Notes under the pieces: generated by a model | The model's database searches: none | Seen by the model: the letters and a program-made list of their open reading frames with translations, nothing else | Told to the model about the DNA's origin: nothing | Position numbers and translations under genes: made by a program | Assembly (NCBI GenBank): GCA_019038625.1 | Contig: JAHOYU010000106.1 | Span: 1 to 39,934 of the forward strand | Source: Candidatus Latescibacterota bacterium | GTDB lineage: Bacteria > Krumholzibacteriota > Krumholzibacteriia > Krumholzibacteriales > Krumholzibacteriaceae | Direction of reading: 5' to 3' | Length of the DNA: 39,934 nt | Shown: in pieces, positions 16,286 through 39,740 of the stretch | How positions within the stretch are numbered: position 1 is the first letter of the stretch | Layout of the letters: every line of letters starts with the position of its first letter

Positions 16286-16767
16286 TGACTACTTATACAG
16301 CAACAGAAAGACGGTCATCCCTGCTGCAAGCAACGTCTCACGGTGGAGCGTATGGGGTGAAAGCCCTTGTCGCTACCATTGAGGTCGCAGCAGCTACTAC
16401 CGTTGGCCTGACCATTGATTTTGGTCGTGTCCCATCCAACGCCCGTATCCTTGCAAGCTCCCAGTTGTATTGGGATGACCTTGCAACCAGTGGTGCGCCC
16501 ACGTTGGATTTGGGTATTGGTGCGGTTAACGGCAATCTTGCCAACGCAGACGACCCCGATGCACTGAGTGCCGGTCATGATACGACCAGCGCGGGTAGTG
16601 CATCAGCATTATCTGAAATTGCCAATGCCGGTTTGCAGGCATGGGATTTTGTAGCCAGTGAAACCACCGATCCGGGTGGCTCATTAATGGTCTACGGAAC
16701 CCTGGCAGATGCAGGGGTTAATCAGGTAGGAACATGCAGTCTGGAACTTTATTACGTTGTTGACTGA
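16282..16767 (+). CDS. Head decoration-like protein (161 aa)
   Basis: 161 aa from ATG 16282 (a second ATG follows at 16285), overlapping the coat stop. It is rich in Ala, Gly, Ser, Thr and Asp, nearly free of Lys, and has alternating strands ('AATTVGLTIDFGRVP', 'GTCSLELYYVVD' at the end). A small beta-rich protein immediately after the coat gene suggests a capsid decoration or cement protein. No family recognised. Confidence 0.6.
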   Translation: MMTTYTATERRSSLLQATSHGGAYGVKALVATIEVAAATTVGLTIDFGRVPSNARILASSQLYWDDLATSGAPTLDLGIGAVNGNLANADDPDALSAGHDTTSAGSASALSEIANAGLQAWDFVASETTDPGGSLMVYGTLADAGVNQVGTCSLELYYVVD

Positions 16768-17318
16768 TGTTCTCTGAACTGGCTTTGGGTGCTTGTTCAG
16801 ACCTTGAGTTCGGTTCTGTTCTTGATATTGGAAGCGGAAGTGGGTCACATGCGGCTCACTTCCGCGACCTTTCAAAGACCGTTACCACGGTCAACCTTGA
16901 ACCACCGGCTGATATGGTTGGTGATTATCTTGAACTTGAATTGCCGCAGCATGACCTTGTTTGGGCGAGTCATGTGCTGGAACACCAGCCCAATCCGAAT
17001 TTGTTTCTAAGGAAGTGCTTTGCCGATACCGGCAGGTATTTCTGCGTTACCGTACCACCGTTAAAACATGAGATTGTCGGTGGTCACCTGACTCTCTGGA
17101 ATGCAGGATTGCTGCTTTACAACATGGTGATTGCCGGGTGGGATTGCAGCGAAGCAAAGGTTATGACCTACGGTTACAACATCAGCGTGTTGGTTGAGAA
17201 GAAAAAGGCTGACTTGCCGCCGTTAAAGATGGATTCCGGCGACATTGAGCGGTTATCCGGGTTTTTCCCGTTTCCAGTATGGCAGGGTTTTGATGGACGA
17301 ACGACCGAGAGAACTTGA
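16767..17318 (+). CDS. Class I SAM-dependent methyltransferase (183 aa)
   Basis: 183 aa from ATG 16767 (overlap with previous stop). The Rossmann glycine motif is clear: VLDIGSGSGSHAAHF from residue 18, with the acidic motif II end near 'TTVNLEPPAD' and 'HDLVWASHVLEHQPNPNLFL' as motif IV/V, the pattern of small-molecule or sugar methyltransferases of the Methyltransf_11/23 type. No DNA-methylase motif (DPPY, NPPW) is present, so a nucleic acid base target is unlikely. It opens a three-gene cassette (with 17293-17859 and 17856-18605) set inside the head operon, which suggests modification of virion protein or a sugar upon it. Substrate unknown. Confidence 0.82.
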   Translation: MFSELALGACSDLEFGSVLDIGSGSGSHAAHFRDLSKTVTTVNLEPPADMVGDYLELELPQHDLVWASHVLEHQPNPNLFLRKCFADTGRYFCVTVPPLKHEIVGGHLTLWNAGLLLYNMVIAGWDCSEAKVMTYGYNISVLVEKKKADLPPLKMDSGDIERLSGFFPFPVWQGFDGRTTERT

Positions 17319-17859
17319 TGATGTCCCACATGTTGCCGACCTTAAGCCGGTTGCGATAGAACATGCCGGGGCGGGAACATGGGCAGAGTTCGGTGTTTAT
17401 CGTGGCAACAGCGCACGGCACTGGTTAAACCACATGCCCGATAATACCCACTTACACCTGTTTGATTCATTTGAAGGCTTGCCCGAATACTGGGATATAG
17501 TCGGTGATGGCAATCCGCGTGAAATCAACATGTTCAAGGTGCAGGAACATGAAATACCCGTGTTCCACGGCTCACGCTCAACCATGCACCGGGGTCTGTT
17601 TGCCGACACCCTGCCAAAAGCTGATATGGGTGTGCTGAGTTTTGTCAATATCGACTGTGACCTGTATTCCTCAACCGTCACGGTACTTGAGCATATTGAG
17701 GTAGAACCGGGAACCATCATGATTTTTGATGAATACCACGGTTATCCGAATTACAGGGCCCATGAGAGAAAGGCGTATTTTGAATGGTCGGAGCGTACCG
17801 GTTACAAGCTTGATTGGATTGCAACGGCGCACTGGGGCGCATTGGGAGTAGTGGTATGA
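17293..17859 (+). CDS. TylF/MycF-type O-methyltransferase (188 aa)
   Basis: 188 aa from ATG 17293, overlapping the upstream methyltransferase by 26 bases; an earlier start would overlap more. The TylF (macrocin O-methyltransferase)/Methyltransf_24 motifs are all there: EFGVYRGNSARHW at 32-44 (SAM binding), LFDSFEGLPEYW at 56-67, VNIDCDLYSS at 118-127 and IFDEYHGYPNY at 144-154 with metal-binding Asp/Glu. Known members methylate sugar hydroxyls in antibiotics and glycans. TylF members are about 250 aa, so this is a short form. Overlaps the next gene by 4 bases, so co-expressed. Confidence 0.85.
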   Translation: MDERPRELDDVPHVADLKPVAIEHAGAGTWAEFGVYRGNSARHWLNHMPDNTHLHLFDSFEGLPEYWDIVGDGNPREINMFKVQEHEIPVFHGSRSTMHRGLFADTLPKADMGVLSFVNIDCDLYSSTVTVLEHIEVEPGTIMIFDEYHGYPNYRAHERKAYFEWSERTGYKLDWIATAHWGALGVVV

Positions 17860-18605
17860 AGAAACTGGCAATCGTGTGTGGCGCACCGTCCTCTGAAATG
17901 CTTGCGCCGTTTGATGATCCCGAATACGAGGTGTGGGTACTGGGCAATCGCTCACAGAACTACCCGCGCTACGACCTGATATTTGAAATTCACGATGAAA
18001 TAGACGAGGAACATGACGAGCGTTATCCGCAATGGTTGGTGGATAAGAACACACCGCTTATTGTGGGCAACAACTTCCCGATCAAAGCCGACCACGTTAC
18101 GACATTCCCCTATGATGAGTCCGAGCGGTTGTTCGGCTCACTGTACCTGACATCAAGCCCGGCAATGATGGTCTGTCTGGCTATGTTACGCGGTTATCCG
18201 TACATGGAACTGTACGGTATTGACCTGTCCATAGATGACTTTGAATACTTCTGGCAGCGTCCCTGCATGGAAGCATGGATAGGCTTTGCGCGTGGCAAGG
18301 GCCATGAGGTTGTCATACACGAACTTTCACCTGTCCTGAAAGCCGAGTACGTTGAGGGCATGGCGTGTGGTGGCAGACCGGACTTTTCCAAGCCGCCGTT
18401 TACCGAAGATGGTTTCCTTGGATTGGCAAAGCGTCATCAGGAAAAGATCGCACAGGCCAACCAGCAGATAGCGCAATTGCAGATTGTGATTCAAAGCAAC
18501 GACGGCGCAAGGCAGGCATACACACAAATGGCGCGGGTTGCCCGTTCGGTTGAGGCCGGAAACGACATTCCAACACTGGATATAACGGTACGACAAAAGG
18601 ATTGA
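17856..18605 (+). CDS. Rossmann-type protein resembling MptE/DUF115 family (249 aa)
   Basis: 249 aa from ATG 17856 (ATGA overlap). Residues 1-150 look like a nucleotide-binding domain: 'KKLAIVCGAPSSE' start, 'EVWVLGNRSQNYPRYDLIFE', 'IHDEIDEEH', 'YLTSSPAMMVCLAMLRGYPY' and 'LYGIDLS', then 'QRPCMEAWIGFARGKGHEV'. This order (strand-Gly loop, 'D.IFE.HD', 'TSS.A.M...A...GY..I.LYGIDL') recalls DUF115/MptE-like proteins, some linked to sugar or nucleotide transfer. Residues 185-230 are a Gln-rich coiled coil (KRHQEKIAQANQQIAQLQIV), which may bind it to a partner. Third gene of the inserted cassette. Activity unproven. Confidence 0.55.
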   Translation: MKKLAIVCGAPSSEMLAPFDDPEYEVWVLGNRSQNYPRYDLIFEIHDEIDEEHDERYPQWLVDKNTPLIVGNNFPIKADHVTTFPYDESERLFGSLYLTSSPAMMVCLAMLRGYPYMELYGIDLSIDDFEYFWQRPCMEAWIGFARGKGHEVVIHELSPVLKAEYVEGMACGGRPDFSKPPFTEDGFLGLAKRHQEKIAQANQQIAQLQIVIQSNDGARQAYTQMARVARSVEAGNDIPTLDITVRQKD

Positions 18606-18811: not shown

Positions 18812-19041
18812 TGGGTATTGAAAGGAACATCAAAGACGTACTCAGGGAAGGCAGGCAGAAACCAAAACGTGTTGAACTGGTTGGTCCGGGCGGTGTAAAC
18901 AAACAGAACAAGCGGCGTAAAGCAGCGATGGAGAAAGGCCCGAAAGCGGTTACCCGTGATGTACAAAAGCGCATGGGCGAGTACAGGCGTGGCAACGTCA
19001 TCGACAAAGTTAAACGCTACAAGAACCCGTTGAATAAATAA
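18811..19041 (+). CDS. Small very basic protein (76 aa)
   Basis: 76 aa from ATG 18811, about a third Lys/Arg, without motif. TAATG overlaps on both sides (18811 and 19041) join it to its neighbours. Possibly a small DNA-binding or virion-internal protein. No family recognised. Confidence 0.5.
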   Translation: MGIERNIKDVLREGRQKPKRVELVGPGGVNKQNKRRKAAMEKGPKAVTRDVQKRMGEYRRGNVIDKVKRYKNPLNK

Positions 19042-19388
19042 TGGCTACTGCAACGCAGACACGCGAAACCGCCGCTGAAATCCTTGGCATACTGGGCGAG
19101 GGCGAGACTTTACCGTCCTATGAAACCGCTGATCTTGATCAGGCATACACGGAGGTTTTCAGCGAGTTACAGGCGCTGAATCTGACCACATGGGCAGAGA
19201 GTGCCGATGTGCCGGACCAGTATGCGCGCTCGGTTGCAATGCTGGTGGCAGAGGCCCGTGCGGTCAAGTACCAGATACCGGATGCGCGTTATCAGCGTAT
19301 TAAGCTGGAAAAGATCGAGGCAATGCGCATGATCCGCGAATTGCAGGCGAGGGCAAAAATGGGTCAGACGGAAATAGAGAACTTCTAA
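19041..19388 (+). CDS. Head completion/tail accessory protein, P22 gp4-like (115 aa)
   Basis: 115 aa from ATG 19041. All-helical pattern beginning 'AAEILGILGEGETLPSYETA' with 'LDQAYTEVFSELQALN' and 'ALMLVAEARAVKYQIP' -type helices, the shape of P22 gp4-like head completion proteins that bind under the portal and start tail assembly. The next gene begins right after its stop and is gp10-like, the same order as in P22 (coat, gp4, gp10). Assigned by fold pattern, size and gene order. Confidence 0.65.
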   Translation: MATATQTRETAAEILGILGEGETLPSYETADLDQAYTEVFSELQALNLTTWAESADVPDQYARSVAMLVAEARAVKYQIPDARYQRIKLEKIEAMRMIRELQARAKMGQTEIENF

Positions 19389-22300
19389 ATGCCAAGAGTT
19401 GAAATCCCCCTGATTGGCCCATCCTATACCAACAGGGAAAAACCATTATCCGCACAGGTTGCAAAGAATCTTTGGCCTGAAATCAACCCGGAAGCGCGCA
19501 ATCAGGTTGCCCTGCACAATGTTGCAGGCACAAAGACGTTCGCAACGCTGGAAGGCGTTGATCGTGGTATGCACGATTTCAACAACCTTTTGTATGTGAT
19601 TAACGGACAGACCTTGTATTCGGTTGATGCCGAGGGTGTGAATTACGCATTGGGAACGATTGCCGGTTCCGGGCGATGCGTGATGGCGAACGACTCATAC
19701 CAGTTGATCATAACCACCGGCGCAACACCGTATAAATACACGGTAGCCGGTGGAGTTGAGGCTATAACCGACCCTGACCTGGTGAACCCGACCACGGTTG
19801 CCTATTTGAACAACCAGTTCATATTCGACCAGAATAACGGCGTATGGGGTGAGTTTGTCACCAGTTCGGTGGATCCCGCATTCTCCGTTGATGCGCTGGA
19901 TTTCGCACAGGCTGAATCACATCCCGATGACATAACTGCCATTGTTGCTTTCAGGCAGTTGGTTTATTTCTTTGGCTCCAAATCGGTTGAACCGTGGCAG
20001 AACACCGGCAAAGGCAATCCACCGTTTGCACGGGTGAACAGTGGTGTCCAGCCGTATGGACTAGCAGGACTGCATGGCATCACCAAGACCGATGAGTTCA
20101 TGTATTTTCTGGATACAAAACGTATCCCAAGACGATCAAACGGGCTTAATTTTCTGAATATCGGCAATCCTGCCCTTGGGGTGGAGTTTGCCAAGTATTC
20201 AAAGATTGATGATGTTATCGCTTTTGATTTCGTGCAGGATAACCAGCAATTCGTAGCGTTTACATTCCCGGCCGCCAACCGGACATGGGTGTTCCATGAG
20301 CCATCCGGTAGCTGGTTCCAGCTAACCAACGGTATCGGCAATGACCGCCACCGTGCAAGTTCGATGATCCATATGTACGGCCTGAATTACTGTGCAGACC
20401 ACACCAATGGTTTGTTGTATGAATACTCGCTGGATATATATTCAGATAACGGCGAACCGATCATCAAGCAACGTGATACCGCCGTTATCCACGGTGGTTT
20501 ATTCGGCGTTCCCGGCAAAAAACTGTTCTTCGATGAAGTGGAATTTATCATTGTTGCAGGGCAGACCGAGGTTGCGGGAACAGGGTTAGGACCACAGCCA
20601 CCGGATACAATACCAGACCCACCACTAGATTTAGACCATCTGCTATATTATCAGGACTTTGAAACCCTGAAAGATTCTCAAAGCGTCAACAGTGGCTATA
20701 ACATGCTCGAAGGCCTGTATGGTTACGGGCTGAACGATGGCTCATCCCTGGTTGCATCGGCTAATGTCGGCTTTGCTACCAATCCAAGTGCTGCCGGTAT
20801 GCACGGCGGTAATGCTGCTGGTTGTAATGGCACGACAGATAACGTTTTCAGCCTTGAAAATGAAGCCGATGATGCAATCTGGACAACGGATGAACACACA
20901 CAGGTATGGTGGTTTTATGTCACACAAATAGGCACGCTGGTTGGCCTTTCAAACTCAGGTGACATGTCCGGCAATGGTTTTAATCCATCCGGTATGCAGA
21001 ACTTTATTAACGCCGATGGCACAATCAGTACATTTATAGGTGATTACGCTTCACCATCTACCCGCGAGGAATTTACAACCACAGCAACCGTAACCCTTGA
21101 TGCGTGGAACTATCTGACCATATCGCACGAACCCTCCACCAAGACACTTGCCATCTCGCTAACCCCTGATACATCCGGCACACCAGTTACACCAGAAGAA
21201 TTTACTTATACCGTAACCATGTCGCCATTTGCAAACGGTTTATTGCTATGCGGAGGGTACAACAACGGCGTTAATGCGCCTATGCTGTCCGGCTCTCGCG
21301 TGCAGCACTGGTCGTTGTGGGATTATGTTCTTCCTGAGACGCAGGCAAGTATCATGTTTAACGGTGGCGCAGGACTTTCTACGCCAGCATTTTTCGCACA
21401 AAACGATAGGTGGCCCGCGCAAGCATCAGTCGGTGCAGCAACGACCACAAGACCGCAAGTTGAACTGTTCATTCCTGGCGACTGGTCAACCTATACGGCA
21501 ACATCAGCAGTTCCAAGTGCTGTTGCTGTTACTGATGGCGATACGCTGCAAGGCTACCGAAGCCAGCACGAAAATGGGGCCATGACTGGCGGAACAATCG
21601 GAACCCCAACGCTCAAAACCAACATACAGAACGGCCTGTCAGTGGTGAGGGTTGCATCTCCTTCGGTGCAGGCAATGTCGGCTGCATGGAGCGGGATGAG
21701 TACATTGTCAATGTCTGTATTTTTTGCAGGCTCGTGCAATAACGCAAATGCAACCGGCGTATTTGTGGCTTTGGGTGGTTTTCATGGCAGGGTATATGCC
21801 AATGATACCGGTGTTATCGGATACCTGAACAATGATGGTGATCAGGTTGAGGCTGATGCTGGTGATGCCGTGGGCAGTGATACGTTTTTCATTGGTGCAA
21901 TCACCTATGATGGTGTTGCTGGCGAGATCAAGGTATTCATGAATGGTGCAAAGTCTAACGAAAAACTGACAGCATCTACCGGGTTAGCCGGTGCCGATGG
22001 CGGTCAGTTGTTTGCGCGTGATAATGGGCCTAATGAGCCATTTACGGGCGATATGGGGCATTTGATTGCTCATCGTGAAGCCCTGTCTGAAGAAGACGTT
22101 ATTTCAGTCATGGATTGGATGAATAACAAGTGGCACGTTTACGAGGGCTGGACGGATGATGACGAGTATGCCCCACAAGACCCGATCGCACCGCCTGCCC
22201 CAGACCCACGAACCGAAATAATGTCACCGTTCTGGGAGAATACCGGCAACTGGATAGACTTGAGCAAGCTCACGCATACCACGTTTGAGGGCATGTTCGG

Positions 22301-22979
22301 TGTCGCCATTGAACTGGCCGATTTCAACAAGGTGGTCGCTGTTGACATGGCGGCTTTGACCACCACGCAGGATGCGGGTAACAGGATACAGTTACAGGAC
22401 TACGTAGGCTACGACAACGGCGCTTTATACATTACAGATGGTGACGGCAACGTACTGGATGAAATGATCTACAGCGGCGTACCAAGCGGCGATTCCGTGC
22501 TGGTTCCAACAGGTTCAAACTATGTTGTAATCACATCGGATACCGGCAATGCACAGGTCAGGAAGTGGGACACCACGCAGATCAGTACGATTGGTTCGGT
22601 GGCATGGGAATGGTTCTTCGGTGTGCCGTTCGAGCTTGGGCGGCATTATTCAAATACCGACAAGGTAATCCCCGCAGAAGGCGTTTCGCTACGCTTTACT
22701 GTGCCGGTCACATCCCTGTCATACGAGCTTCTGTTTGTGTCGGTTGGCAATACCACGGTAAGCAGCACCCGTACCGGCTCTGTTAACCAGACGGTAGGTG
22801 ATTACACATCCGCACCGTCCCATACGTGGGGGCTTGGTGGCGGTATCAGTGCCGGGGTGAATTTATCCGGCAAGGACATCGCTTTGGTTCCGGGCGAGAC
22901 ATATTTCTTCAATATTCGCATTAACAACCCGATTGATAATAATTTGCTGACGCTCCAAGTGGTCAACAGGCAGGTATAA
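19389..22979 (+). CDS. gp10-like packaged-DNA stabilization/tail protein with LamG-type insertion (1196 aa, split gene 5' part)
   Basis: 1196 aa from ATG 19389. Residues 1-400 resemble P22 gp10 (tail hub that plugs the portal): 'GVDRGMHDFNNLLYVINGQTLYS', 'AGSGRCVMANDSYQL', 'SHPDDITAIVAFRQLVYFFGSKS' line up with 'GVSRGVEY..VYRVCGGKLY', 'GSGRVSMAHG', 'ESQPDGIIGIGTWRDFIVCFGSS'. P22 gp10 is ~470 aa. Near residue 400 (GLGPQPPDT) the family would continue into 'VMxxxSDDGGxTWS', but that piece is in the next ORF (22979-23203). In between lie two concanavalin/LamG-like regions (about 414-656 and 689-920) and an extra beta domain (945-1196), ending in a stop. So a carbohydrate-binding type segment of ~2.4 kb seems inserted in gp10. 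Confidence 0.8.
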   Translation: MPRVEIPLIGPSYTNREKPLSAQVAKNLWPEINPEARNQVALHNVAGTKTFATLEGVDRGMHDFNNLLYVINGQTLYSVDAEGVNYALGTIAGSGRCVMANDSYQLIITTGATPYKYTVAGGVEAITDPDLVNPTTVAYLNNQFIFDQNNGVWGEFVTSSVDPAFSVDALDFAQAESHPDDITAIVAFRQLVYFFGSKSVEPWQNTGKGNPPFARVNSGVQPYGLAGLHGITKTDEFMYFLDTKRIPRRSNGLNFLNIGNPALGVEFAKYSKIDDVIAFDFVQDNQQFVAFTFPAANRTWVFHEPSGSWFQLTNGIGNDRHRASSMIHMYGLNYCADHTNGLLYEYSLDIYSDNGEPIIKQRDTAVIHGGLFGVPGKKLFFDEVEFIIVAGQTEVAGTGLGPQPPDTIPDPPLDLDHLLYYQDFETLKDSQSVNSGYNMLEGLYGYGLNDGSSLVASANVGFATNPSAAGMHGGNAAGCNGTTDNVFSLENEADDAIWTTDEHTQVWWFYVTQIGTLVGLSNSGDMSGNGFNPSGMQNFINADGTISTFIGDYASPSTREEFTTTATVTLDAWNYLTISHEPSTKTLAISLTPDTSGTPVTPEEFTYTVTMSPFANGLLLCGGYNNGVNAPMLSGSRVQHWSLWDYVLPETQASIMFNGGAGLSTPAFFAQNDRWPAQASVGAATTTRPQVELFIPGDWSTYTATSAVPSAVAVTDGDTLQGYRSQHENGAMTGGTIGTPTLKTNIQNGLSVVRVASPSVQAMSAAWSGMSTLSMSVFFAGSCNNANATGVFVALGGFHGRVYANDTGVIGYLNNDGDQVEADAGDAVGSDTFFIGAITYDGVAGEIKVFMNGAKSNEKLTASTGLAGADGGQLFARDNGPNEPFTGDMGHLIAHREALSEEDVISVMDWMNNKWHVYEGWTDDDEYAPQDPIAPPAPDPRTEIMSPFWENTGNWIDLSKLTHTTFEGMFGVAIELADFNKVVAVDMAALTTTQDAGNRIQLQDYVGYDNGALYITDGDGNVLDEMIYSGVPSGDSVLVPTGSNYVVITSDTGNAQVRKWDTTQISTIGSVAWEWFFGVPFELGRHYSNTDKVIPAEGVSLRFTVPVTSLSYELLFVSVGNTTVSSTRTGSVNQTVGDYTSAPSHTWGLGGGISAGVNLSGKDIALVPGETYFFNIRINNPIDNNLLTLQVVNRQV
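20590..22979 (+). other. Inserted LamG/beta-domain segment splitting the gp10-like gene
   Basis: Segment of about 2.4 kb from the Pro/Asp-rich linker (GPQPPDTIPDPP) to the TAA at 22977. It encodes the LamG-like and beta domains of the gp10-like protein. Both ends meet conserved gp10 sequence (left 'FIIVAGQTEVAGTGLG', right 'VMISYSDDGGETWS'). A new ATG overlaps the stop (TAATG), so the 3' part can be made separately. No terminal repeats or transposase are seen, so this is domain acquisition, not a transposon. Confidence 0.6.
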
Positions 22980-23203
22980 TGAGTTGTATTCCCCATGTGA
23001 TGATCTCGTACTCGGACGATGGTGGCGAAACGTGGTCGCATGAGCAATGGAAACCGCTGATCAACTGCCACAAGAACTACCTGAACAGGGTGATACTAAG
23101 GCGCGGCGGCAGTGCGTATAACCGCATTTACCGGCTGAAATACAGCGAGAACAGCAGTTTTACCCTGGTATCGGCACATGCTGATGTAGGTGCTGGTATC
23201 TGA
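22979..23203 (+). CDS. C-terminal fragment of gp10-like tail protein (74 aa), separately translated
   Basis: 74 aa from ATG 22979, overlapping the previous stop by one base. It is recognisable as the C-terminal end of gp10-type proteins: 'HVMISYSDDGGETWSHEQW' followed by 'YLNRVILRRGG..YNRIYRL' (family 'MLxWSDDGGxTWSNExW...YxxRVxWRRLGxxRDRVF'). Alone it is too short to fold as that protein; it may complete the interrupted gp10 by binding in trans. No ribosome binding site is obvious, fitting termination-reinitiation from the upstream gene. Confidence 0.7.
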   Translation: MSCIPHVMISYSDDGGETWSHEQWKPLINCHKNYLNRVILRRGGSAYNRIYRLKYSENSSFTLVSAHADVGAGI

Positions 23204-23658
23204 TGGCTGAAACACCCTCATTCACATCACAGATACCGGATAAGTTTCTGGAGGATGCCGGAACGTCAGAATGGGCGCGTGACCTGACATTGTATCTGAA
23301 CGACCTGAACCGCGAGGGTGGTGTTGTCTCAACGGTGGGCGAGACTGAAACCATCGTTCTGACCCAGCAGGAAAAGCTGGATTTAATGACCGTCACCGCA
23401 TCGGTCAACCTGGATACGGTCAAGGCAGCATCGGAAGCCAATACAACGGCGTTAGCGGGTCTGCAGGACTCGGCACCGGCATATTCCATCACCAATGATG
23501 GCACGGACAGGGCATATAGCGCGGATGCCGCTGCCGGGGCTATTACCAACCCGCCCTCACAGGCCGAGGTTGAGAATATCCGTGATGCGGTTCTGGAAAT
23601 TGCCGATGTTCTGGCAACCCTGATCCGTGATTTGAAGGACAAAGACATATTCGGATGA
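23203..23658 (+). CDS. Tail-associated protein (151 aa), unknown
   Basis: 151 aa from ATG 23203 (overlap with previous stop). N-terminal part is polar with 'PDKFLEDAGTSEWARDLTLYL'; the middle has Ala/Thr-rich helix and the end 'AEVENIRDAVLEIADVLATLIRDLKD' is a clear helix/coiled coil. Short helical proteins follow gp10 in many such phages, some forming the tail needle or trimeric stalk. The needle role is only a guess. Overlaps the next gene by 4 bases. Confidence 0.5.
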   Translation: MAETPSFTSQIPDKFLEDAGTSEWARDLTLYLNDLNREGGVVSTVGETETIVLTQQEKLDLMTVTASVNLDTVKAASEANTTALAGLQDSAPAYSITNDGTDRAYSADAAAGAITNPPSQAEVENIRDAVLEIADVLATLIRDLKDKDIFG

Positions 23659-25905: not shown

Positions 25906-28451
25906 TGTCGGCAGAAGAACAAGCACTCCGTGAAGAACTCGCACTCATCGAAGAGCTTCAGGATATTGAAAAGCAGGAAAATAAACGCTTAACCGCAACC
26001 GATCTTGCGCAGTCGTTTAACAAGGGTATGGTGGATTTGATCAACCTGCCATCAGAGATTATAAACATGCCACTAAGGGCGGTTGGTGCGCCTGAGATAC
26101 CCACGCAAGGGTTCAGGCAAATGGTGGCAGATACGGAGATGACAGCACAGCCCGGAGAAGAAGCAGAGGGGTTTCTGCCGAGGGGCGCTGAGATACTTGG
26201 CGCATCCGTTCTGCCGGGCATGGGCATTATGCAAAAAGGCGCTCAGGTGTTAAAGGCTGGAATCCCGGCGGCACAAAGAACCGTCACGCAACAACTCACC
26301 GCAACCACGGCACAGACACCGCTCAAGTCAGCCGCTGTTGATGTATCGTCAAGCTTTGGGGCTGGGTTTGGTGGCGAGGTTGCGTCAAAATTCACCGACG
26401 ACCCAAGCCTTATTGTGCTCGGTGAGCTAGCGGGCGGCTTTACGCTGCCAACCATAACAGCAGTGACCCGCGTGGCGGGCAAGCCGATTGTTGATAAACT
26501 CAAAGAAACCATCGTTCCGTTCACAAAGGCGGGCGCAGAGCCGAGGGCGGCAAGGCGGTTACAGGATTTGGTTCCTGACCCGGAAGCGGCGGCGGCAAGG
26601 ATTGACCCCGATTCTCCAATATCCCCCGCAAGACAGACGGGTGATGATCGCCTGATAGCTTTGGAAAGAACCGTCCTTGAGTCAAACCCGGAGTTACAGG
26701 CCAGATTTACCGACGAGCTAAATGGTGCTTTGGATGCTGCCAGAAAACAGGCTGTTGATTTTGGTGGTGACAACCGGATGCGATCAATCCTTGAGTCCGG
26801 GCAGGATCATCTCACCAATCTGGTTAATCTCAGGGCGGCAACAGCGGCACAGTCGGCACGGTCGCAGATAGACGCACTGGGCGGGAGCGCAACACCAAGA
26901 GAGATAAGCCGTATTGCCCGCAAGGAATTGAATGCGGCATTGAAAGATGTACGCAAGCAGGAATCAGAGTTGTGGAACAGTATTGACAAGCAGGCAGCGG
27001 CCACATTCCAGAACACAAAAGCGGCACTCAGAACCATCAAAGACGAAACCGGCGAACTTGTACCGTCAAGGGTGCCAGCGTGGATAAACAAGGCTGCAAG
27101 CACCGACAAGGCGGTTACGTTCAATGACTTGCAGCAGGTCCGTACCCGTGTTCTGGCTAACGCAAGAGAGGCCACCGCCAATAACCGGTTCGACAGGGCG
27201 AGGGTGCTTAATAATATCGCGGATGGATTATTGGATGACATGTCGGCAGTTAAAGACCCGGCAGTGGATGCAGCGCGGGAATTTTCCAGACAGTTAAACC
27301 AGAAATTCAACGAAGGTGCCGTAGGTGCGCTGTTAAGTCGTGGTGCCAACCGTGGTGCTGGCGTGGCAAGCGCAGACACGCTCAACAAGCTGTTTTCCGG
27401 CGCAACCCCTGCAACCAATGTGCGGGCATTCATTGCCGCCTCACCTGAGTCTGCACCACAGTTGCAGCAATTCCTGAAAACAGGATTCGTGAAGGCATCA
27501 ACCAAAGGCGGCGCATTCAGCCAGAAACAAGCACAGGCGCAGATAGACAAACTGGAATCTCAGGGCATGTTCGAGATATTCCCGGGCCTTAAAAAAGAAT
27601 TGGGCGGCGCAAGGTTGGTATTTAGCGATGCCGACAAACTGGCTCAACGCGCTGCAACCGTAACCGAGCGTGGCGGATCAAGGCTTTTACAGGACAGCAA
27701 CAAGTCACTTGCTGGGGTGCTGTTGGGCGCGGAGCCGGGGCAGGAAATGGCAGTGCTATTGAGGGCAGAAAACCCCGAAGCACTGGCAAAATCCCTGTTG
27801 CGCAGGATGGGGGGTGATAAGCGCGCCATCAATGGGTTAAAAACGTCGTTTGTTGAGTCCCTGTTCAACTCAGCGACAACAACAGGCAAGAGCGGTGAGA
27901 TAGAAATATCAGGCCAGAAACTTGCCAGGTTGTTTAATGAAAACCTTGGTGTTGCCAGGTCGCTAGGTATGGACAGCGCAGAAATTACCCGCATGAGAGC
28001 GATCACCAAACAGATGATCCAGGCACAACAGAAGTCAGGTGAAAGCGTGGGCGCAATCCTTGAAGACAAACCAGCAAAACTGCTGACGTTCATTGCTCAA
28101 CTTGCGGGCGCAAAAGCCGGTCAGAAGGTAGCGGGCGGCGGCATTGGCTCATCGCTTGTCATTGCGGGCAAGGGATCAACAGCGGCGCGGGAGATTTTAC
28201 AAAGACTCACTACGGGCGAGGCGCAAAAACTGCTTATCGCCGCACAGTCCGACCCTGTTTTGTATAAGGCATTACTTATCAGAACTAGCGCGACCCAAAA
28301 AGATATGTTTGATGCCACGCAGGTTATCGAGTCGTGGCTGATAGGCGCGGGTGTTCAGTCCGGTAGCGAGGCAATGGACGACAGGTTCAAAACCAAACAA
28401 GGCTCAGAGAACGCGGGCGCAACAGAAACACTTAATCTAGGTACTCAATAA
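25905..28451 (+). CDS. Large injection/internal virion protein, P22 gp16-like (848 aa)
   Basis: 848 aa from ATG 25905. Almost entirely helical, Ala/Lys/Arg rich. The N-terminal region has 'LAQSFNKGMVDLINLPSEII', 'LPRGAEILGASVLPGMGI', and the long middle (about 230-600) has repeated amphipathic helices. No lytic transglycosylase motif was seen. Similar long helical proteins (gp16 in P22, internal virion proteins elsewhere) form a channel for DNA entry. It lies last in the injection set. P22 gp16 is 609 aa, so this is larger. Confidence 0.7.
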   Translation: MSAEEQALREELALIEELQDIEKQENKRLTATDLAQSFNKGMVDLINLPSEIINMPLRAVGAPEIPTQGFRQMVADTEMTAQPGEEAEGFLPRGAEILGASVLPGMGIMQKGAQVLKAGIPAAQRTVTQQLTATTAQTPLKSAAVDVSSSFGAGFGGEVASKFTDDPSLIVLGELAGGFTLPTITAVTRVAGKPIVDKLKETIVPFTKAGAEPRAARRLQDLVPDPEAAAARIDPDSPISPARQTGDDRLIALERTVLESNPELQARFTDELNGALDAARKQAVDFGGDNRMRSILESGQDHLTNLVNLRAATAAQSARSQIDALGGSATPREISRIARKELNAALKDVRKQESELWNSIDKQAAATFQNTKAALRTIKDETGELVPSRVPAWINKAASTDKAVTFNDLQQVRTRVLANAREATANNRFDRARVLNNIADGLLDDMSAVKDPAVDAAREFSRQLNQKFNEGAVGALLSRGANRGAGVASADTLNKLFSGATPATNVRAFIAASPESAPQLQQFLKTGFVKASTKGGAFSQKQAQAQIDKLESQGMFEIFPGLKKELGGARLVFSDADKLAQRAATVTERGGSRLLQDSNKSLAGVLLGAEPGQEMAVLLRAENPEALAKSLLRRMGGDKRAINGLKTSFVESLFNSATTTGKSGEIEISGQKLARLFNENLGVARSLGMDSAEITRMRAITKQMIQAQQKSGESVGAILEDKPAKLLTFIAQLAGAKAGQKVAGGGIGSSLVIAGKGSTAAREILQRLTTGEAQKLLIAAQSDPVLYKALLIRTSATQKDMFDATQVIESWLIGAGVQSGSEAMDDRFKTKQGSENAGATETLNLGTQ

Positions 28452-29200
28452 TGGCAACCTATATCCCCTTAAGTAATCACCAGATCCAGTATGTTGACAG
28501 TAATGGCGACCCGCTGGTTAACGGTACGCTGGAGTTCTACCTTGCAGGCACAACCACGGCAACCTCATTGTTTTCAGATGTGGATGGTACGTCAGTCGGC
28601 GTATCCGTAACGCTCAACTCACTGGGTATGCCAGAATCCGGTGGCAATGTGATATTCCTTTTCCGTGACCAGTCCAAGGCGATCAAGATAGTCGGCAAGA
28701 ACGCAACGGGCGCAACCCTGTGGACCGATGACAATATCCCTGCCGTAGCATCATTTGACTCAACCGCATCAACTAAACTGGATACCGTTGAGGAAAATGC
28801 CGATGTTACCGATGCGACCAATGTGGCCGCTGCCGGGGCGTTGATGACCGATGGTTCGGCAAGCATGAGCGGCGACCTTGAAATGGGTGCCGGAACATTC
28901 GTGCTTAAAAGCGTTACTGCCGGGATTACCGCATCAGTAACGCAGACACAGGGCGAACAGGTGCTTATATCACGCATCAACGAGGTTTCCACGGTAGCCA
29001 ATGCAAACGATGTTGTGACCATGCCTTCTGCGGTGGGTGGTATCAGTGCGACAGTAATCAACAACGGTGCAAACGTGCTGGGCATATTCCCGGCCTCCGG
29101 TGATGACAATGGTTCGGGGGTGGATACTGTAACCACGCTGGCAAGTGGTTCAAATGTCACGTTTGCGGCTTATGACGACACTACATGGGAAGCTATTTGA
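28451..29200 (+). CDS. Tailspike/tail-fibre with phage head-binding domain (249 aa)
   Basis: 249 aa from ATG 28451 (TAATG overlap). Residues 8-100 match the P22 tailspike-type head-binding domain: 'QIQYVDSNGDPLVNGTLEFY', 'AGTTTATSLFSDVDGTSVGV', 'SLGMPESGGNVIFLF', 'TGATLWTDDNI'. The C-terminal part (about 120-249) is short: 'DGSASMSGDLEMGAGTFVLK' then small beta segments, and lacks a long beta-helix or enzyme. So this is a short fibre, perhaps an adaptor onto which another protein such as the 248-aa one downstream or the glycine-rich protein attaches. Its stop overlaps the next start. Confidence 0.75.
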   Translation: MATYIPLSNHQIQYVDSNGDPLVNGTLEFYLAGTTTATSLFSDVDGTSVGVSVTLNSLGMPESGGNVIFLFRDQSKAIKIVGKNATGATLWTDDNIPAVASFDSTASTKLDTVEENADVTDATNVAAAGALMTDGSASMSGDLEMGAGTFVLKSVTAGITASVTQTQGEQVLISRINEVSTVANANDVVTMPSAVGGISATVINNGANVLGIFPASGDDNGSGVDTVTTLASGSNVTFAAYDDTTWEAI

Positions 29201-36730: not shown

Positions 36731-36775
36731 ATGTCAACGATCATGAAACGCCCTGAGTGGCTGTCTGATGACTAA
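36731..36775 (+). CDS. Tiny leader ORF (14 aa) overlapping the methyltransferase start
   Basis: 14 codons from ATG 36731 (MSTIMKRPEWLSDD) behind CAGGGGTAG, ending at TAA 36775, 8 bases inside the methyltransferase gene, whose start at 36768 has no Shine-Dalgarno sequence. It probably serves to couple translation (reinitiation) onto the methyltransferase; its product may also be a small peptide. Confidence 0.35.
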   Translation: MSTIMKRPEWLSDD

Positions 36776-37760
36776 ATACAAGCAATTAGCAAGCGCCAAC
36801 ACAGCCCAGTTACCGCGTTCATATGAAGAAATGACAACCGCAATCGCCCTTTGTGAAAGTGTGGACGAGTGCAAGGACTGGGCAGACAAAGCGGCCGCGC
36901 TTGCAAGCTATCACCGGCAATCAAAAGACACGGTTTTAATGAATCGGTTTATGCGGATACAGGCGAGGGCCATTCGCAGGGCTGGTGAGGTGCTGGAAAC
37001 GATTGAGCCTCAAAGCGGTGGTGACAGAAAATCAAACGGTGGGCAACCGCCCCTTGATAATACGCGCACGGCAGCAGCCCGCGAAGCCGGAATGTCACCA
37101 CACCAACAAAAAACCGCCATGAAAATAGCGCGGATACCTAAAGAAGAATTTGAAGAGTTGGTGGAGTCATACGAACCACCAACAATAACCAGGCTTGCTG
37201 TCAGGGAGGCTGAAAAAAGAGAGCAGCCAGCGCCGGTTAAGCGCGAACTGCCCGCAGAAGAATATAACTTGATTTATGCAGATCCGCCTTGGCGCTATGA
37301 ACACTCCAAAACCGACAACAGAAAAATAGAAAACCACTATCCAACAATGGACCTGCTAGAAATATGCAATCTGCCCATTGGCGCGCTGGCGCACGAAGAT
37401 TGCGTTTTATTCATGTGGACAACCAGCCCAAAATTATTCGAGTCAATGGCTGTAATTGAGGCATGGGGATTCAGTTACAGAACGTGTGCTGTGTGGGACA
37501 AAGAAATCATAGGTATGGGCTACTACTTCCGGCAACAGCACGAAATTCTGTTGATTGCGACAAAGGGAAGTCCCGGCACACCAGATCCATCGATGCGGGT
37601 TTCATCAATTATCAAGTCTCGCAGGGAAAAGCACTCTAAAAAACCTGATCTGTTTTATGGGCTGATCGAAAGCATGTACCCGAACGCCAAAAAACTAGAA
37701 CTGTTTGCACGGAAAACGCAACCGGGATGGAGTGCATGGGGTAACGATGCACAACTTTAA
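36768..37760 (+). CDS. MT-A70 family DNA adenine methyltransferase with N-terminal helical domain (330 aa)
   Basis: 330 aa from ATG 36768. The C-terminal part (about 163-330) is the MT-A70 catalytic domain: 'YNLIYADPPWRYEH' with catalytic DPPW at 172-175, 'CVLFMWTTSPKLFESMAVIE', 'GFSYRTCAVWDKEIIGMGYYFRQQHEIL', 'KHSKKPDLFYGLIES' and 'KLELFARKTQPGWSAWGN'. MT-A70 proteins add a methyl group to adenine N6. The N-terminal ~150 residues are helical and include 'EAGMSPHQQKTAMKIARIPK', a ParB/HTH-like stretch that may bind DNA. Overlaps the next gene by 14 bases. Phage DNA methylation protects from host restriction or times replication; which one here is unknown. Confidence 0.9.
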   Translation: MTKYKQLASANTAQLPRSYEEMTTAIALCESVDECKDWADKAAALASYHRQSKDTVLMNRFMRIQARAIRRAGEVLETIEPQSGGDRKSNGGQPPLDNTRTAAAREAGMSPHQQKTAMKIARIPKEEFEELVESYEPPTITRLAVREAEKREQPAPVKRELPAEEYNLIYADPPWRYEHSKTDNRKIENHYPTMDLLEICNLPIGALAHEDCVLFMWTTSPKLFESMAVIEAWGFSYRTCAVWDKEIIGMGYYFRQQHEILLIATKGSPGTPDPSMRVSSIIKSRREKHSKKPDLFYGLIESMYPNAKKLELFARKTQPGWSAWGNDAQL

Positions 37761-38274
37761 TGACAGTTTAAAAAAATCACATGCTGCCAGCGACCATCCG
37801 ATGTGGTTGCACTGTTACAAGCAATTCTTTCCCAACATGTTGGCATGTGTTGATCATAGACAGGATGGCGAACACCAGCGGGCCGGTATCGACAGGTCGG
37901 TCATACTGGAAAACTCAAAACAAATACTGATTGACGAAAAGGTTAGGTATAAAGACTACGGCGATATTCTTCTTGAGTACACTTCCGTAGATACAACCGG
38001 CGCACCAGGGTGGGCCTGTAAGCCGCTCATGTGCGACTACATAGCATACGCAATCCTTCCAAGGGGCAAAGCCTACCTGTTACCTGTAATTCCACTACAG
38101 CGGGCATGGGCAAGTTTGGGTGCAAACTGGATAAAAAAATACGGGACAAGACAGGCGCAAAACAATGGCTACAAGACGCTAAATTGTCCTGTCCCGTTTG
38201 CCCCATTATTCAACGCCCTGCAAACCGCACAGATAGCAAACTTCGAGCCTATTAACCAAGAGCAGGCAGCCTAA
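37747..38274 (+). CDS. PD-(D/E)XK nuclease-like protein (175 aa)
   Basis: 175 aa from ATG 37747, overlapping the methyltransferase by 14 bases (an earlier in-frame start at 37705 would overlap more). I see a restriction-type nuclease core: 'AGIDRSVI' with Asp49, then 'KQILIDEKVRYKDYGDILLE' with D63-E64-K65 as the D-x-K motif, then 'GWACKPLMCDYIAYAI'. Strand-turn-strand with D and DxK separated by 14 residues fits PD-(D/E)XK folds. No closely known family. Next to a DNA methyltransferase this suggests a paired modification and cutting activity, but it may instead be a replication or recombination nuclease. TAATG overlap joins it to the O-like gene. Confidence 0.6.
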   Translation: MHNFNDSLKKSHAASDHPMWLHCYKQFFPNMLACVDHRQDGEHQRAGIDRSVILENSKQILIDEKVRYKDYGDILLEYTSVDTTGAPGWACKPLMCDYIAYAILPRGKAYLLPVIPLQRAWASLGANWIKKYGTRQAQNNGYKTLNCPVPFAPLFNALQTAQIANFEPINQEQAA

Positions 38275-39293
38275 TGGCTAGATCACGCAACATTAAACCC
38301 GGACTGTATAAAAATGAATATCTGGTAGAACTGCCATTTGAGACACGGCTCATGTTTGCAGGATTACCCTGTTTTGCAGACCGCGAAGGGCGACTGGAAG
38401 ACAGGCCCATGAAAATCAAAATGGAAATGTTTCCCGCCGACAATTTAAACGTGGACGAGATGTTAAGTGCGCTGGAATCGAAGGGCTTTATTCAGCGATA
38501 TGAATCTGACGGCATTAGATACATTCAAATACTCAATTTCATAAAACACCAAAACCCGCACCACAAAGAAATAGCATCCTGCATACCAGCACCAGACGGG
38601 CATAAAGATTCTGGCGCTGTACCAAGCGAAGTAACACCAGGACAGCGCCAGCGCATATTAGACAGAGATGGTCATGTTTGTCTTTCTTGTGGAAGCACGG
38701 AAGCCCTTGAAATTGATCATATTGTTCCGGTATCAAAAGGTGGCACGAGTGAAGACACAAACCTTCAAACACTGTGCGGAAACTGCAATGCCACAAAAGG
38801 CAATCGCCATACACGAAGCTATAACGAGCCGTCAACGAGCCGTCAACGAAATAAACAAAGCGGGCAACGCCCTACTTGTACAAGGTTAAAGGAATCAGTA
38901 ACAAGTAAAGAGGTTAAAGGAATCAAGAAAAAGGCTAGAACCAGTTTTTTGGACGAACTTGAATTACCTGATTTTGTGGATCCAAAAATATGGGCCGATT
39001 TTGTGCAAATGCGGAAGGAAATTAAAAAGAAACTCACACCAACCGCCGTGAAGCAAATCTTCAAAGACATGGCTGCATGGAAAGCCGAAGGGGACGATCC
39101 GAATCAATCCCTGCTGAACTCAATACGCGGAAGTTGGCAGGGCGTATTCCAGCAAAAGGAAAACAATCATGGAACTACCGGGCAAAAAAGAAATAGCACG
39201 GGCGCAACGCCTATATCAACACCAGCAAGCCGAGGCAAAGAAGCCGCAGCAAGATTGCAAGCTAACCGAGAGGCTTTGGCAGCGGATGCTTGA
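38274..39293 (+). CDS. Replication initiator-like protein (lambda O role) with internal HNH domain (339 aa)
   Basis: 339 aa from ATG 38274. The first ~105 residues are a winged-helix type replication domain typical of phage initiators: 'MARSRNIKPGLYKNEYLVEL', 'LMFAGLPCFADREGRLEDRP', 'GIRYIQILNFIKHQNPHHKE'. An HNH nuclease domain (about 122-180) is spliced in: CLSC at 136-139, EIDHIVP at 146-152, 'DTNLQTLCGNCNATKGN' with CxxC at 168-171. C-terminal 'FVDPKIWADFVQMRK...AVKQIFKDMAAWKAEG' and 'SLLNSIRGSWQGVF' are the usual end of this family. DNA repeats at 38824-38925 lie between HNH and C-domain. The gene overlaps the P-like gene by 125 bases. Confidence 0.8.
   Translation: MARSRNIKPGLYKNEYLVELPFETRLMFAGLPCFADREGRLEDRPMKIKMEMFPADNLNVDEMLSALESKGFIQRYESDGIRYIQILNFIKHQNPHHKEIASCIPAPDGHKDSGAVPSEVTPGQRQRILDRDGHVCLSCGSTEALEIDHIVPVSKGGTSEDTNLQTLCGNCNATKGNRHTRSYNEPSTSRQRNKQSGQRPTCTRLKESVTSKEVKGIKKKARTSFLDELELPDFVDPKIWADFVQMRKEIKKKLTPTAVKQIFKDMAAWKAEGDDPNQSLLNSIRGSWQGVFQQKENNHGTTGQKRNSTGATPISTPASRGKEAAARLQANREALAADA
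38824..38925 (+). repeat. Direct repeats inside the initiator gene, candidate replication origin
   Basis: ACGAGCCGTCA occurs twice in tandem (38824-38834, 38835-38845) plus four bases of a third copy. Further on, AGGTTAAAGGAATCA occurs exactly twice (38883-38897 and 38911-38925), 28 bases apart. Both periods (11 and 28) are not multiples of three, so the copies are read in different frames; the repeat is a DNA-level feature. Lambda's origin also sits within its O gene as iterons. Confidence 0.6.
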
Positions 39294-39597
39294 ATTGTAC
39301 GGCAGGCAGTGGGAAGCAAGTTACGGCCACGTAGACGGTGACGTGTTCCCGGTATGGTGCGATGCGCTGCAAACCGTAAAGCCCGAATCAATCAAACGCG
39401 GCCTGGATGCGTTGATAGCCGAGGGCGGCGAATACCCACCCAACCTGATCAAGTTTCTGCGACTGTGCAGGGAATCGAAATATCACACCATGTCACCAAA
39501 CACAACCGCGCTACCACCACCAAACGTACACCGCAGGCCAGAGGTAATATCAGCCAAAGAAAAGCACCAACAGGCGGTGAGGGAATTACTGGCATGA
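39169..39597 (+). CDS. Helicase-loader-like replication protein (lambda P type, 142 aa)
   Basis: 142 aa from ATG 39169, with AAAGGA 8 bases upstream, inside the initiator gene (125-base overlap); ATG 39286 would be a shorter option but loses the helix 'LTERLWQRMLELYGRQWEAS'. The pattern 'LWxRMxELYGxxWxxSYG...WxxAL...IKRGLDALIAEGGEYPPNLIKF' fits phage P-like/DnaC-like helicase loaders. The end is a charged tail. Directly after the O-like gene, as in lambda. The start of the window carries the 3' part of another, 96% identical version. Confidence 0.65.
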   Translation: MELPGKKEIARAQRLYQHQQAEAKKPQQDCKLTERLWQRMLELYGRQWEASYGHVDGDVFPVWCDALQTVKPESIKRGLDALIAEGGEYPPNLIKFLRLCRESKYHTMSPNTTALPPPNVHRRPEVISAKEKHQQAVRELLA

Positions 39598-39740
39598 AAC
39601 CCAAAGACACCCGCAAGCGCGATCTCAGTTCACCAGAAAAACAACCGCGCAAAAAATACTACCGGGAACCAGACATTCACAACGTACGATTTTACTCTCA
39701 CAGGTGGCTATGGCCCGTGCCAGGCAGAGGTGCGGCGTGA
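39594..39740 (+). CDS. Small conserved basic protein (48 aa), second version
   Basis: 48 aa from ATG 39594 (ATGA overlap with P-like gene) to TGA 39740 (overlap with GTG 39737). It pairs with the 50-aa ORF at 209-361: same start context, 'DTRKRD', 'EKQPR', 'DIHNVR', 'LWPVPGRGAA', with changes between. Function unknown. Confidence 0.7.
   Translation: MKPKDTRKRDLSSPEKQPRKKYYREPDIHNVRFYSHRWLWPVPGRGAA

Follow-up and report, generated by a model that had tools for sequence, protein, structure and literature searches.

The tail hub gene of a P22-like, short-tailed phage is divided into two open reading frames (ORFs), and both parts are kept by selection. The hub belongs to the known gp10 family, and its division, common to a small family of uncultured phages, is a real and selected arrangement. 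In short-tailed phages, hub proteins close off the genome and belong to the most conserved components. The phage was identified in a stretch of 39,934 nucleotides, hereafter the window, which is a single contig (C106) from a Candidatus Latescibacterota genome bin of 269 contigs. Its recognisable genes include those for the portal, the coat and DNA-ejection-type proteins.

The first ORF (19389–22979) encodes 1196 amino acids and is followed by an ORF of 74 amino acids (22979–23203). The stop codon of the first overlaps the start of the second by one base (TATAATG). Residues 1–394 of the 1196-aa protein match positions 1–400 of phrog_578 (E 6e-72), the 486-position PHROGs profile of the gp10 family (head closure Hc3), and the 74-aa protein matches positions 405–469 (E 2e-7). 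The two ORFs thus cover the whole-protein profile jointly and in complementary fashion, with almost no gp10 sequence missing. The N-terminal part of the hub (residues 1–400; 19389–20588) also matches the PDB hub chains 7eeq and 9vyg. The sequences GLGPQ and VMISYSDDGG adjoin in intact homologues, for instance in L024 as GQGSDP directly followed by VVMLSFSDDGG. The preliminary description of this DNA had proposed one gp10-type gene in two parts, with the last strands made as a separate chain; the profile coverage, the contiguity of the halves in intact homologues and the retention of the 74-aa ORF in three relatives (see below) bear out both proposals. A search of the contig revealed no gp10 copy or part besides the two ORFs, which agrees with that description. 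A second gp10 is encoded on another contig of the bin (C77, locus L023, minus strand); it differs from that of the window, is a single piece of 613 aa and carries about 130 aa inserted in frame after residue 49–56, a site other than that of the cut in the window.

Close relatives of the locus were taken from IMG/VR; a search of genomes from the host's phylum or class matched only the genome that contains the window. In relatives whose sequence extends beyond residue 400, the gp10 part ends near GTGLG and is followed by an insert. Five contigs (L002, L003, L004, L014 and L016) end within the insert, and the three that are long enough (L001, L005 and L006) all carry a stand-alone 74-aa ORF. Including the window, the split is therefore seen in four complete loci on separate contigs, all of them metagenomic. 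Identity to the window is 62–91% for the 74-aa ORFs and 63–90% for the N-terminal part. The same break together with the same ORF in L001, L005 and L006 is explained neither by chance nor by an assembly slip. Unlike the P22 gp10-type hub, which is a single polypeptide, the hub is encoded by two ORFs in the window, L001 and L005.

To place the split within the family, we compared it with intact gp10s. All 80 further IMG/VR loci found in a scan with intact gp10s have one full-length ORF of 456–546 aa; because they were the top matches to another gp10 branch, they represent the usual state of the family, not a census. L024 and L113 (464 aa) are the closest relatives with an intact gp10. In the comparison of relatives that the preliminary description had pointed to, the more distant ones thus lack the break, and the close ones long enough to show it share it. 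Relative to the window, inserts of at least 8 residues were present at the cut loop, in frame, in 30 of 92 intact gp10s, and away from this loop only in L023 and L010. In L030, L031, L073, L088 and others, the in-frame inserts at the cut loop reach 35–67 aa in an otherwise intact gp10. Judged from these alignments, the window gene is cut at the insertion-prone loop of the gp10 family.

The position of the cut within the fold was read from an AlphaFold2 model of the intact relative L033, built with 62 sequences (pLDDT 77.7, pTM 0.74); a single-sequence model of intact L021 (pLDDT 33) was discarded. In the L033 model, the propeller strands span residues 41–351 with high confidence and are followed by two strands (364–369 and 381–392), both located before the cut loop. 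The loop itself comprises residues 393–404, with pLDDT below 50 at 398–400, and the window cut maps onto it. Five strands follow (405–411, 422–425, 434–444, 451–456 and 462–473), in a platform part predicted with modest confidence (pLDDT 46–74 beyond residue 400). Over its full length, the model matched the hubs of Pan3, P22, Sf6 and Pam1 in Foldseek (TM 0.79–0.82), with weaker matches to the SU10 and T7 nozzles. In T7, C-terminal strands together with three N-terminal strands form the beta-barrel of the platform, and the fibre dock links the propeller to the platform on the outer side (PMC6702177). The SU10 nozzle chain likewise passes from the propeller to a C-terminal platform, and its fibre dock lies outside, near the propeller–platform connection (PMC9509320). 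Taking the model layout and these architectures together, the N-chain is best read as containing the whole propeller and the first platform strands, and the 74 residues as the latter half of the platform, comprising its last five strands. The earlier suggestion that the 74-aa protein completes the propeller is contradicted by this model, in which the propeller sits wholly in the N-chain and the 74 residues map to the C-terminal beta-sandwich, the platform of T7 and SU10. The idea rests on the Asp-box motif (sialidase matches), and intact gp10s have this motif outside the modelled propeller.

The insert of the window (20589–22978, 2.39 kb) comprises three regions which, like the two hub parts, the junction between them and the next gene, lie on the forward strand. 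Module 2 (21438–22190) is of LamG/concanavalin type, with a PF13385 (LamG_3) match at residues of about 765–904 (E 7e-7; 30.0 bits against a curated cut-off of 27.6). Module 1 (20589–21437) is possibly of the same type; its weak PF13385 match (residues of about 494–589, E 0.16) falls below the cut-off. The third domain (22212–22979), of beta type, forms the end of the N-chain and gave no match to Pfam, PHROGs or phage records. It is nevertheless kept among the relatives, with full copies in L005 and L006 (41–48% identical) and partial copies in L001, L002 and L003; the L001 copy contains a small deletion with a frameshift. No relatives of the LamG modules were found in IMG/VR or in phage records. 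GC at third codon positions (GC3) is lower in modules 1 and 2 (0.45 and 0.47) than in the third domain and the two hub parts (0.55–0.63), which is compatible with a later acquisition of the LamG modules.

The region preceding the third domain differs among the relatives. One type of module, distinct from those of the window, was seen in L001, L003 and L005, and a similar one, judged by eye, in L004 and L014; L002, L016 and L006, also grouped by eye, carry a different type. In addition, the N-chain and the 74-aa ORF of L001 and L005 are separated by an extra ORF of about 288 aa, which in L001 shows a weak LamG match (E 0.013). Variable modules are thus joined to a conserved virion-anchoring hub part that is 63–90% identical. 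A search for repeats flanking the insert, as expected of a mobile element, gave only short, chance-like matches. No endonuclease, intron or intein was detected in the insert with Pfam, PHROGs or Rfam. Two LamG-like regions and a beta domain had been described in the window, of which one LamG region is firm and the beta domain was recovered, the other LamG region staying below the cut-off. Similarly, an insert does interrupt the gene as had been stated, but it is not one plain insertion, as relatives carry other modules or extra genes in its place.

The neighbouring genes were also considered. Directly upstream of the hub gene, in the window as in all relatives, lies a 115-aa ORF (19041–19388) in the position of the adaptor (gp4-type), for which PHROGs returned only a weak match of unknown function; the portal and coat genes of the phage are P22-like. 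Downstream of the C-chain, a 151-aa gene (23203–23658) occupies the place of the fibre gene of intact relatives, according to gene order and alignment, and had no match in phage records. The corresponding gene of intact L113 encodes a fibre-like protein of 391 aa with a C1q-like end; the short gene of the window gives the impression that the hub has taken over its binding part. A 249-aa protein encoded at 28451–29200 resembles an annotated tail spike over its first 106 residues (MW202785, 39%) and another phage protein at its end (MW202657, 51%). From these matches it is probably a separate small spike or fibre. Receptor binding may therefore not depend solely or mainly on the hub, and the modules that the hub carries may be a second adhesion device.

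We consider it probable that each hub subunit consists of two chains, with the platform restored by the 74-aa chain and the inserted modules displayed on the outside for binding to a host receptor. A hexameric hub of the P22 gp10 or T7 gp12 nozzle type would comprise six copies of each chain. The 1196-aa N-chain would build the entire beta-propeller and the first platform strands, and would then leave the fold at an exposed platform loop and continue as LamG-type modules and the conserved end domain. The C-chain, translated from the overlapping start codon and possibly coupled to translation of the N-chain, would pair with the platform strands of the N-chain and add the last five. The platform restored in this way would be the surface that binds the adaptor ring, and in the virion the modules would project outwards at the cut, where T7 and SU10 hold their fibres. 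Given their domain type, the modules would bind a receptor of the host, probably a surface glycan. LamG-fold domains have roles other than glycan binding as well. An N-chain free to terminate within the insert would allow sets of modules to be exchanged without an in-frame return to the platform.

Alternatively, the two chains assemble and the inserted domains are not receptor binders but have a structural or assembly function, such as holding the ring together or docking a fibre, for example the product of 28451–29200. This would agree with the third domain being common to all relatives, with its position in L006, where it directly follows a cut at residue 314 without a lectin-like module, and with the presence of a separate spike-like gene in the phage. 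However, the modules before the third domain are swapped among close relatives whose hub parts are so similar. Variable modules on a steady anchor are the usual pattern of receptor-binding parts. We therefore regard a purely structural role as a minor possibility beside the display of receptor-binding modules.

The hub gene of L006 (4362–9347) is cut at two loops, apparently into at least three pieces. Its first chain leaves gp10 at residue 314 and passes directly to the third domain, and a new ORF picks up at residue 319. The segment 319–400 is present twice with different continuations; the two copies are 70% identical, with a pN/pS of 0.24. Extra ORFs, one with tail-protein matches, lie between the copies, and the 74-aa ORF then follows. 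Conceivably, the hubs of this clade are assembled from interchangeable chains, L006 having three chains per subunit (cuts at 315 and 400) and two selected versions of the middle chain that are mixed within a hexamer and give two binding specificities, although we regard this as rather doubtful.

A further possibility is that the parts are rejoined by programmed frameshifting or readthrough, an intron or an intein, so that the virion would contain a single long hub protein bearing a large insert in a loop. The overlap of stop and start codons would suit this, as would the position of the 74-aa ORF at the same −1 offset to the preceding ORF in three of the four loci. On the other hand, the offset differs in L006, and in L001 and L005 the preceding ORF is the separate gene of about 288 aa, so that a shift would not join the gp10 parts. 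No Rfam match of any kind, and hence no intron model, was obtained in the window, and the insert gave no intein or endonuclease match. Moreover, the 74-aa ORF starts with its own ATG after an AGG-type, ribosome-binding-like stretch in all four loci (22965–22981 in the window, including the overlap). Rejoining therefore seems improbable to us.

To examine whether the two parts are maintained as proteins, we compared the window with L001. The pN/pS was 0.095 for the N-terminal part and 0.099 for the 74 aa, with synonymous sites near saturation in both. In the 74-aa ORF, 48 of 222 bases (34 of them at third positions) but only 7 of 74 residues differ. When the same changes were scattered randomly over the ORF (20,000 trials), a mean of 29 and a minimum of 19 residues changed, and an internal stop arose in 90% of the trials. 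The low pN/pS and the scatter test indicate that both hub parts are maintained as proteins, the 74-aa ORF being under purifying selection as strong as that on the N-terminal part. These data also bear on the idea that the 74-aa protein is a free accessory derived from gp10, for example an assembly factor, and that the N-chain alone forms a shortened hub. The modelled N-chain does hold a complete propeller, yet the 74 residues retain the platform sequence pattern found in intact gp10s, Asp-box stretch included, and their rate of evolution matches that of the N-terminal part; we give this idea little credence. An assembly error, a pseudogene or a decaying gene, suggested by the binned origin of the contig and by the deletion with a frameshift in L001, is very improbable and largely contradicted by the arrangement common to four separate contigs and the strong purifying selection on both parts.

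The hubs of P22 (gp10), Sf6 (gp8), Pan3 and Pam1 (phrog_578, PF11134) share with that of the window the family, the propeller, the C-terminal strands and probably the gene order next to the adaptor, but they consist of one chain with no large insert, whereas the window has two chains and 2.4 kb of added domains. The T7 gp12 and SU10 nozzles (PMC6702177, PMC9509320) have the propeller and platform in common with it, and there too extra domains or fibre docks arise from loops; in contrast to the window hub, they are single chains and their fibres are separate docking proteins. Intact gp10s with inserts of 35–67 aa use the same loop, but their inserts are short and in frame and leave the chain unbroken. 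Insertions have likewise produced two complementary chains in nrdA of Aeh1, gene 43 of phage 25 and T4 topoisomerase (PMC2988022) and in cox2a/cox2b of Campsomeris (PMC5374615). For nrdA and gene 43, the assembled halves of the split enzymes are reported to be active (PMC2988022). Those cases concern enzymes or a membrane subunit, with inserts of endonuclease type or of unknown nature, whereas the window encodes a structural hub of the virion; its first chain carries the modules as a fusion, and its insert yielded no endonuclease match. No description of a split gp10 or nozzle was found in the literature searched, which included few subscription journals. If correct, a two-chain hub with swappable adhesion-type modules would mean that host recognition can reside in the hub itself, and would be a case of a split gene that selection has maintained for a structural protein of the virion. 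The split hub makes it testable how much breakage and decoration a conserved virion part tolerates. As annotation pipelines would label the 74-aa chain a hypothetical protein, more such cases may be hidden.

Several other observations were made in the window. Between the coat gene and the gene in the adaptor position (16767–18605) lie two methyltransferase-like genes, one of them TylF-like, and a 263-aa gene without a family; a gene resembling the latter by eye is found upstream in L024. A gene for an MT-A70-type DNA methyltransferase is located at 36768–37760, and 38274–39293 encodes a protein of replication-initiation type that contains a central HNH endonuclease domain. The start of the contig (1–361) is repeated near its end (about 39386–39740) with 86% identity, which reflects either a repeat or the ends of a circular genome that overlap and have diverged. 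Finally, the 74-aa ORF (22979–23203) also matches positions 524–595 of phrog_19101, the end of a second phage protein family, and the C-terminal platform segment may be the sole module that this family and gp10 have in common.
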